DNA of 64,000 nt from Chryseobacterium taklimakanense (lineage in GTDB: Bacteria; Bacteroidota; Bacteroidia; Flavobacteriales; Weeksellaceae). The stretch spans positions 1 to 64,000 of the forward strand of contig NZ_LT906465.1 in NCBI RefSeq assembly GCF_900187185.1. Reading direction: 5' to 3'. Positions 3,268-49,674 of the stretch are shown in pieces; within the stretch, counting starts at the first letter, position 1, and the number at the start of each line of letters is the position of its first letter. The position numbers and the translations under genes were made by a program. The notes beneath the pieces were generated by a model. It saw only the letters and a list, made by a program, of their open reading frames with translations, searched no databases and was not told the DNA's origin.

Positions 3268-4335
3268 ATGAAAAAGCTCACAATCCTTTCCGTTTTATTT
3301 TCGGTGGTTCTGTCCGCTCAAACCATGCCGACACTGTCGGATGAAATGGCGGTGAAACTCTCAAAAATGCCGCTTCATTGCATCAATACCGAATATCCGA
3401 ACAAAACCGGCCATATCATCAACAACGAAAAAGATGCGGTAATGACGCCGAAACAGCTGCATCCAAGTTTTTATGGATGTTTAGATTGGCACAGCTCTGT
3501 GCACGGACACTGGATGCTGGTTCGGCTGCTTAAAACCAAGCCGCATCTCGAAAATGCGCAGGAAATTGAAGCTGTTTTAGAAAATTCTTTTCAGAAAGAA
3601 AAACTGAAGGAAGAGGCGCTCTATTTTTCAAAATACCAGTTAGCGGGAACTTTTGAACGCACTTATGGCTGGGCCTGGCTGCTGAAATTGAACGAGGAGC
3701 TCATCACCTGGGACGATGCAAGAGCAAAACGCTGGCACGAAAATTTAAAACCGCTCACTCAAGAAATCATAAACAAATGGAAACTTTATTTACCAAAACA
3801 AACTTACCCTAACAGAACCGGAGTGCACCCTAACACGGCTTTTGCAATGGCTTTTGCACTCGATTGGGCTCGTGCCGCTAACGATAAAGATTTTGAAAAT
3901 CAAATAATTGAAAAATCAAAGTATTTCTACCTGAAAGACAAAAAGGCACCGGCTTATATGGAGCCCGACGGTTCAGATTTCTTTTCACCAAGCCTGAATA
4001 TATCTTACCTTATGAGCAGGATTCTCCCACAAAAAGAATTTGTGATTTGGCTGAATAATTTCTATGATAAGCGTAGCCTGAACAACATTAAACAAATCCC
4101 CGTCGTGAGTGATTTATCTGATTACCAGACCGTTCATTTGGTTGGCCTGTCCTTCAACCGGGCTTGGGATATGAAAGGAATTGCCAAAGCACTGCCAAAA
4201 AATCACAGGCTGAAAAAAGATTTTGAACACACTGCTAATAAATTTATATCCAATGCTTTACCGCTTCTGTTTCAGGGTAACTATGGTGGCGATCACTGGC
4301 TGGCCAGTTTTGCGGTGTATTCTATGAAAGATTGA
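3268..4335 (+). CDS. DUF2891 family secreted protein
   Basis: The 355-residue protein starts with a Sec signal peptide (MKKLTILSVLFSVVLSAQ) and is probably periplasmic. It carries the DUF2891 pattern, including HPSFYGCLDWHSSVHGHWML near residues 68-87, WDDARAKRW near 150, HPNTAFAMAFALDWAR near 190, and GDHWLASFAVY at the C terminus. The repeated His and Trp residues and predicted all-helical make-up suggest an alpha/alpha toroid, as in glycan-active enzymes. That is inference, since no activity is known to me for the family. It is followed by dacB in the same direction. Confidence 0.85.
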   Translation: MKKLTILSVLFSVVLSAQTMPTLSDEMAVKLSKMPLHCINTEYPNKTGHIINNEKDAVMTPKQLHPSFYGCLDWHSSVHGHWMLVRLLKTKPHLENAQEIEAVLENSFQKEKLKEEALYFSKYQLAGTFERTYGWAWLLKLNEELITWDDARAKRWHENLKPLTQEIINKWKLYLPKQTYPNRTGVHPNTAFAMAFALDWARAANDKDFENQIIEKSKYFYLKDKKAPAYMEPDGSDFFSPSLNISYLMSRILPQKEFVIWLNNFYDKRSLNNIKQIPVVSDLSDYQTVHLVGLSFNRAWDMKGIAKALPKNHRLKKDFEHTANKFISNALPLLFQGNYGGDHWLASFAVYSMKD

Positions 4336-39005: not shown

Positions 39006-39063
39006 ATATAAATGTTATTGAACTTTTATTTTACCCAAAAATAGAAAAATATAGACAAATCCC

Positions 39064-39126
39064 ATAGCCCCGAGTGCAGCGGCATCCTTTTGTGGAGCGC
39101 AGCGGAACAAAAGATACAGCGGAAAG
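39064..39126 (+). repeat. Bacteroidetes-type intergenic hairpin repeat, copy 1
   Basis: The block reads AGCCCCGAGTGCAGCGGCAT, an ATCCTTTTGT arm, a GGAGCGCAGCGG centre, an ACAAAAGAT arm, then ACAGCGGAAAGCGGG. The two inner arms can pair. This layout is common in flavobacterial intergenic DNA from memory. A diverged copy lies at 21621-21715 on the other strand. Confidence 0.65.
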
Positions 39127-39208
39127 CGGGAAAAAGCTCCTGAAAAAAATAAAGAAAAATACAAAAAAGATTACTGAGATTGCGTCGTGCCTTACCATGG
39201 TACTGCAT

Positions 39209-48101: not shown

Positions 48102-49520
48102 TTAAATTTTTTCAGCTTTCCTGATGGCTGATTTTAAGGCGTTGAGTTTGTTATTGACCTCCTGAAGTTCATTTTCCGGAGAAGATTTTGCTACAATACC
48201 GGCACCTGCCTGATAAAAAAGCGTATTGTTTTTGCTGAGAAATGTACGGATCATAATGGCCTGGTTGCAGCTCCCATCGAAGCCTACAAAACCGATGCAG
48301 CCGCCGTAGTAGCTGCGTGGGCTTTTCTCGTATTCGTCGATCAGCTGCATCGCACGGTATTTTGGCGCACCGCTTAAGGTTCCCTGTGGGAATGTAGCGG
48401 CAATCACCTCAAACGGATTCTGTTCTTCGGCTAGATCGGCCGTCACTTCACTGACCAAATGGATGACGTGAGAAAAGAAATGGATTTCCTTCAGTTTCGT
48501 AACCGTGGTATTTTTTCCGTAGATGCTTAAGTCGTTGCGCGCGAGATCTACAAGCATGGTATGTTCGGCGTTTTCTTTGGCATCTTTTTTTAGATTTTCG
48601 GCCGATGCAAGATCGGTTTCCGTATCGCCGGTTCTGGCAAAAGTCCCTGCGATTGGGTGGATCACCGCTTTTGAACTGTTGATGATGAGCTGGCTTTCCG
48701 GGCTGGAACCCATCAGTTTATAATCGCCGTAATCAAAATAAAAAAGGTATGGCGACGGATTGATATTTCTGAGTGCACGGTAGACATTGAAATCGTCACC
48801 ACGGAATTTCTGTTCGAAACGCCTGCTCAAAACCAGCTGGAACACATCGCCGCGATAACAGTGGTACTTGGCTTTTTCCACCAAATTTTTATATTCTGCA
48901 TCGCTTAGATTTGAAGTTTCTTCTTCAATGGTTTTGAAGGGAAAAACGGGCGCATTTTTTTGATAAATAATATTCTGAAGTTCGAGGGAGTCAGATTTTA
49001 GCCCCGGAATTTGGTTTTCAATCAGAAACATCTCATCATTGAAATGGTTGATTGCAATCACGTACTGGTAGAGCCTATAGCGCAGCAGTGGAATCTGGTT
49101 TCGGTCAGTCTTTTCTTTAAATTCGATATTCTCAAAAAACGGCACCGCATCATAAGCTGTGTAACCGAAAAGCCCCTGCGCAGTTTTTCCCAGCGGATGG
49201 TTTGGAACTTCACAGCTGAAATTTTTAGAAAAACTGTAAAGTAAATCCGTCAGTTTCACCTCTTTTAGCTTAATTTTTTCAGGATTTTCGAGCGGGAATT
49301 TTATTTCAGCTTCATTCTGGTTGCTGATTTCAATTCCGGCAATGGCATTCACGGCAATGTAGGAGAAATTGTTTTCGCTGTTTTGGTTTCCGGCACTCTC
49401 AAGCAGAACCGTGTCGCGGAATTTGTCGCGGAGTCTGAGGTAGATGCCCACCGGGGTGAAGAGGTCGCTCATCACCACTTTTACCGTGGTTTTTACGGAA
49501 ATATTTTTTTGAGTTTTCAT
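48102..49520 (-). CDS. trpE: Anthranilate synthase component I
   Basis: TrpE converts chorismate to anthranilate. The 472-residue protein has the chorismate-binding domain with DVFQLVLSRRFEQK near residue 227, IHPIAGTFARTGD near 290, AEHTMLVDLARNDL near 315 and TLSGAPKYRAM near 380. In the N-terminal allosteric part, VLLESAGN (about residues 34-41) resembles the LLES tryptophan-binding motif, so feedback inhibition is likely. It is the first structural gene, preceded by an attenuator with a Trp-rich leader peptide. Confidence 0.97.
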   Translation of the reverse strand: MKTQKNISVKTTVKVVMSDLFTPVGIYLRLRDKFRDTVLLESAGNQNSENNFSYIAVNAIAGIEISNQNEAEIKFPLENPEKIKLKEVKLTDLLYSFSKNFSCEVPNHPLGKTAQGLFGYTAYDAVPFFENIEFKEKTDRNQIPLLRYRLYQYVIAINHFNDEMFLIENQIPGLKSDSLELQNIIYQKNAPVFPFKTIEEETSNLSDAEYKNLVEKAKYHCYRGDVFQLVLSRRFEQKFRGDDFNVYRALRNINPSPYLFYFDYGDYKLMGSSPESQLIINSSKAVIHPIAGTFARTGDTETDLASAENLKKDAKENAEHTMLVDLARNDLSIYGKNTTVTKLKEIHFFSHVIHLVSEVTADLAEEQNPFEVIAATFPQGTLSGAPKYRAMQLIDEYEKSPRSYYGGCIGFVGFDGSCNQAIMIRTFLSKNNTLFYQAGAGIVAKSSPENELQEVNNKLNALKSAIRKAEKI

Positions 49521-49532
49521 ATCATTTTAAAT

Positions 49533-49566
49533 AAAAAAAAGACTTCAACGCTATCGTCAAAGTCTT
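49533..49566 (-). terminator. trp attenuator terminator
   Basis: On the minus strand AAGACTTTGACG pairs with CGTTGAAGTCTT (12 bp, two G-U wobbles) around ATAG, followed by eight T residues. It lies 13 nt upstream of the trpE ATG and 29 nt after the leader-peptide stop. Its 5' arm (49555-49565) can instead pair with 49606-49615. Confidence 0.92.
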
Positions 49567-49632
49567 ACTTATGCTATTGCAAACAGGATACACGGTTAGT
49601 GCGCCAGACCCGACGAGAGTTTGAGCGGCCAC
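49555..49632 (-). promoter_or_regulatory. trp attenuator: competing pause and antiterminator segments
   Basis: Segment 1 (49626-49632, GTGGCCG) overlaps the Trp codons and can pair with segment 2 (49599-49606, TGGCGCAC, one bulge). Segment 2 continues at 49606-49615 (CGTCGGGTCT), which can pair fully with the terminator 5' arm AGACTTTGACG at 49555-49565 with one bulged U. A ribosome stalled on the Trp codons would free segment 2 and form the antiterminator. Pairings were found by eye. Confidence 0.75.
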
Positions 49633-49661
49633 CACCAAGTATTGTTTGTGATTGCTTTCAT
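49596..49661 (-). CDS. trpL: trp operon leader peptide
   Basis: A 21-codon ORF (ATG at 49661, TAA at 49596-49598) starts MKAITNNTWWWPL. It carries three consecutive TGG codons at residues 9-11 (49629-49637). Three Trp residues in 21 is far above chance, and the ORF sits between a -7 promoter element and an intrinsic terminator ahead of trpE. Its function is to report charged tRNA-Trp to the attenuator, as TrpL does in enterobacteria. It is too short for ordinary gene callers. The ATG lies only 5 nt after TATATTTG, so the transcript may be nearly leaderless. Confidence 0.9.
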   Translation of the reverse strand: MKAITNNTWWWPLKLSSGLAH

Positions 49662-49666
49662 TGGGA

Positions 49667-49674
49667 CAAATATA
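49667..49674 (-). promoter_or_regulatory. -7 element of the trp operon, 5 nt from the leader-peptide ATG
   Basis: TATATTTG on the minus strand is followed by TCCCA and then the leader ATG. No clear -33 TTTG was found. Confidence 0.65.

Follow-up and report, generated by a model that had tools for sequence, protein, structure and literature searches.

The trp operon of Chryseobacterium taklimakanense lies on the minus strand of the window (the whole 64,000-nucleotide stretch that was analysed, positions 1 to 64,000 of contig NZ_LT906465.1), where a promoter element, a short leader ORF rich in Trp codons and an intrinsic terminator precede seven trp genes:

49674-49667, minus strand: -7 promoter box TATATTTG (consensus TAnnTTTG)
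49661-49596, minus strand: leader peptide ORF MKAITNNTWWWPLKLSSGLAH-stop, 21 codons plus TAA
49648-49580, minus strand: 1:2-type hairpin, predicted by folding, whose 5' arm carries the Trp codons and whose apex lies close to segment 2
49637-49629, minus strand: three consecutive Trp codons inside the leader ORF, the putative sensor
49615-49606, minus strand: segment 2, CGUCGGGUCU, 5' strand of the antiterminator
49566-49539, minus strand: intrinsic terminator hairpin of 12 bp with loop AUAG, from folding and covariation
49565-49555, minus strand: segment 3, AGACUUUGACG, partner of segment 2 or segment 4
49540-49533, minus strand: terminator U-tract, eight T, read from the sequence
49520-48102, minus strand: trpE, anthranilate synthase component I (ATG at 49520), first of the seven trp genes
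48090-43182, minus strand: trpG, trpD, trpC, trpF, trpB and trpA, with overlaps or gaps of ≤12 nt

A preliminary description of this DNA had proposed the -7 box, the 21-codon ORF with three Trp codons, and the 12-bp terminator with eight T residues, all of which were located on the minus strand; the distance from the terminator T-run to the trpE ATG is 12 nt, not the 13 nt given there. Its antiterminator, formed by 49615-49606 with the 5' arm of the terminator, was correctly placed and comprises 10 pairs with one bulged U. The further pairing that it drew between 49632-49626 and 49606-49599 is, in the predicted fold, only one portion of a longer hairpin, where the three Trp codons pair with approximately 49601-49593. 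The identities of the seven downstream genes also agree with that description, and because these genes overlap or lie ≤12 nt apart, all seven (E, G, D, C, F, B, A) are likely to be carried on one transcript. The leader region folds 3.4 SD below shuffled sequences (0 of 200 shuffles). The string TGGTGGTGG occurs 42 times on both strands of the 2.76 Mb genome; among the 30 occurrences read, only the one in the trp leader lies within a mini-ORF that has a T-run hairpin and then a gene downstream.

Conservation of the leader was assessed upstream of TrpE homologues from 80 named genomes (Kaistella, Chryseobacterium, Epilithonimonas, Elizabethkingia, Halpernia, Cloacibacterium, and others) and from 30 places in the genome of the window and in its relatives. 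Where both ORF and terminator were identified, 101 distinct leaders were obtained, and all of them have adjacent Trp codons (WWW in 92, WW or WCW in 9), the outcome of a conservation check that had been named beforehand. Since the leader ORF finder demanded adjacent Trp codons, the fair denominator is the 110 loci, and a leader with adjacent Trp codons was found at 109 of these. At the remaining locus (L107), where trpB is the first gene of the operon and trpE therefore has no such leader, a WWW leader with a GTG start, VKTILNISWWWCFQFQKL, is instead present before trpB (4145-4268, minus strand). The leader thus moves with the operon. The 90 distinct leaders of the window's own group encode peptides of 17–28 residues, and their Trp codons begin after 7–9 codons. 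At two loci from another Flavobacteriales family (L103 and L106), two WWW leader ORFs lie in series upstream of trpE, each with its own intrinsic terminator; these are apparent tandem trp attenuators.

Both alternative pairings covary. They were scored in an alignment of 42 sequences, drawn mostly from a single family, so that many of the changes share ancestry. For the terminator, 97.6% of cells are paired and 8 of the 12 pairs carry two-sided changes, a level of covariation reached by none of 500 shuffles. For the antiterminator, the same alignment has 87.8% of cells paired, and 4 of 10 pairs carry two-sided changes (18 cells). No shuffle among 500 had as many antiterminator cells changed on both sides; the counts of pairs with a two-sided change and of further pair types were equalled or exceeded in 63 and 95 of the 500 shuffles, respectively. 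Sliding the partners caused a sharp drop for terminator and antiterminator alike, and in two divergent leaders (L097 and L098) segments 2, 3, and 4 have all been replaced together. The 1:2 hairpin is paired in 58.6% of the alignment, and its covariation is above slid controls and weak in detail. Tested locus by locus against shuffled sequences, the antiterminator reached p 0.05 in 77 of 96 cases, with some Kaistella leaders weak (p 0.1–0.2). For the loci of other families (L099–L109), a simple duplex search performed no better than shuffles in most cases, and claims for the antiterminator are therefore limited to the window's group. RNAalifold returned zero consensus pairs for the 5' half of the leaders, and for this reason the profile model of the clade (R1) uses sequence only.

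The dependence of the 2:3 pairing on the ribosome was modeled by folding transcripts that end before segment 4, with the ribosome absent, on the first Trp codon, or on the stop codon. For the window, the expected number of 2:3 pairs is 0.6 with no ribosome, 11.1 with the ribosome stalled on Trp, and 2.5 with the ribosome at the stop codon. The contrast between stalled and stop-codon states is the same in 88 of the 90 distinct leaders of the group; free RNA has clearly fewer 2:3 pairs than stalled RNA in only 45 of the 90, and thus the protection afforded by the 1:2 hairpin varies. In equilibrium folds the terminator prevails in almost every leader, including when a ribosome sits on the Trp codons, so under this model the switch must be kinetic, as is assumed for other attenuators too. 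The locus therefore has the parts of a classical trp attenuator: an ORF with tandem Trp codons and an intrinsic terminator lie ahead of the first gene, and in silico folding yields an antiterminator whose formation depends on where the ribosome stands and is incompatible with the terminator.

The conserved Trp codons, the covariation, the folds in the three ribosome states, and the lack of TrpR, TRAP, and T-box candidates together make ribosome-mediated transcription attenuation the best explanation, and we assign a probability of about 95% to the reading of this leader as a classical attenuator controlling trpEGDCFBA, as the preliminary description had also held. We infer the start of transcription, ribosome stalling, the efficiency of termination, and the response to tryptophan as follows. 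RNA polymerase would start at approximately 49662, and translation of the leader ORF, probably on a leaderless message, would begin immediately. With ample Trp-tRNA, the ribosome would pass the three Trp codons and reach the stop codon, thereby covering segment 2; the 3:4 terminator would then form, and transcription would end near 49533. With Trp-tRNA in short supply, the ribosome would stall on the Trp codons and open the 1:2 hairpin, and segment 2, thus freed, would pair with segment 3 before segment 4 has been made, allowing the polymerase to read into trpE.

In the transcription start site (TSS) map of Flavobacterium psychrophilum, the flavobacterial -7 box spans -12 to -5 (PMC9723704). 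The box in the window ends 5 nt before the leader AUG, which places the predicted TSS at approximately 49662, 1 nt before the AUG. A spacing of 4–5 nt between box and leader ATG is found in 75 of the 90 leaders of the window's own group, by comparison with 5 of 49 crude ORF starts in the window; this implies that the leader ORF is likely to be leaderless, and the spacing is one mildly new feature of these leaders. At one locus (L047, at about 2318), the leader ORF appears to start with GTG rather than ATG, right after the -7 box. It is reasonably probable, though well short of the confidence attached to attenuation itself, that the attenuator of this family works from a leaderless message starting at or 1 nt before the AUG, which a 70S ribosome would bind as soon as its 5' end is exposed, so that coupling is tight in a phylum where Shine–Dalgarno sequences are hardly used, and that the leader is the operon's main tryptophan sensor.

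A less probable variant, to which we give roughly a one-in-five weight in our judgement, is attenuation as described but with a 5' untranslated region ahead of the leader ORF. It would fit the leaders outside the window's group, where the distance from box to AUG is mostly 7–19 nt, the 15 of 90 leaders inside the group that lack the 4–5 nt spacing, and the rarity of leaderless mRNAs in F. psychrophilum (only 5.5%; PMC9723704). It is opposed by the 5-nt gap in the window, by the 4–5 nt gap in 75 of the 90 relatives, and by the absence of any further TAnnTTTG in the 50 nt that precede the window's leader AUG. Far less plausible is a plain intrinsic terminator, constitutive and partial, that fixes the level of trp expression and does not respond to tryptophan, with an incidental WWW ORF: in almost all folds no element is more stable than the terminator, but this reading was rejected, as it gives no role to the adjacent Trp codons, which all 101 leaders conserve, or to the covariation between segment 2 and the 5' arm of the terminator. 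Control of the same leader by a T-box, TRAP, or a TrpR-like repressor, all established controllers of trp operons elsewhere, was likewise rejected as the least credible reading, since neither TrpR nor the TRAP family has a match in the genome (one contig, 99.97% completeness) and no T-box RNA was found in the window.

Ribosome-mediated attenuation at this locus represents a well-supported attenuator for the family (Chryseobacterium, Elizabethkingia, Kaistella, and relatives) that is missed by the existing Rfam model. Attenuation dependent on transcription–translation coupling is likely to be the main form of tryptophan control in that family, and the leaders collected here include a series of leader ORFs from Bacteroidota that are probably leaderless. 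In a search of the genome for other amino-acid attenuators, hisG and ilvD were not found, which suggests auxotrophy for His and branched-chain amino acids despite retention of a full trp operon. Elsewhere in the window, a Flavo-1 RNA (RF01705), a motif of unknown function, scores above threshold at 39062-39137 on the plus strand.

The closest described relative is Bacteroid-trp (RF01692), the "Bacteroidete tryptophan peptide leader RNA" (Weinberg 2010; PMC2864571). It likewise has a leader ORF with Trp codons and a 1:2 hairpin over those codons, and lies before trp genes in Flavobacteriales; it differs in the sequences of segments 2, 3, and 4, with GGCUUGUC where the window leader has AGACUUUGACG. 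Its model scores the window leader at 25.4 bits, below the gathering threshold of 49, and this is the only match in the genome. Orthologous leaders above the cut-off are L100, L101, L104, and L107; they come from other Flavobacteriales and from one genome that the sampler placed in the window's family (L104 from G021, L107 from G016). Among 198 sampled genomes of the phylum, RF01692 had no match in the window's family, and all of its matches fell in a single other family (f3). The clade sequence profile finds RF01692 members with E of about 1e-6 to 1e-3, the similarity lying for the most part between ATG and WWW, and this match suggests, short of proof, common descent of the two. The proteobacterial Trp_leader (RF00513) was absent among covariance-model matches of the window up to E 10.

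The trp attenuator of Escherichia coli (TrpL) shares with the window leader its tandem Trp codons and an antiterminator and terminator that have a strand in common; it differs in having two Trp codons rather than three, whereas the window's genome lacks TrpR and its leader has a probable leaderless start and no Rfam Trp_leader match. A comparative study by Vitreschak and others in 2004 reportedly predicted attenuators in Bacteroidetes too. For Sinorhizobium meliloti trpL (rnTrpL), the RNA starts at the leader ATG and trpLE(G) is without transcriptional repression (PMC7298713), which provides a precedent for both aspects, albeit in another phylum, with no sequence similarity expected and with control of trpE(G) only. 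In F. psychrophilum, from the same order, leader-peptide attenuation has been inferred upstream of amino-acid operons, and promoters are likewise of the TAnnTTTG type; the main text of that study does not name a trp leader and describes none from the window's family (PMC9723704). The window leader is, by these comparisons, part of a divergent clade, missed by Rfam, of a known kind of attenuator.
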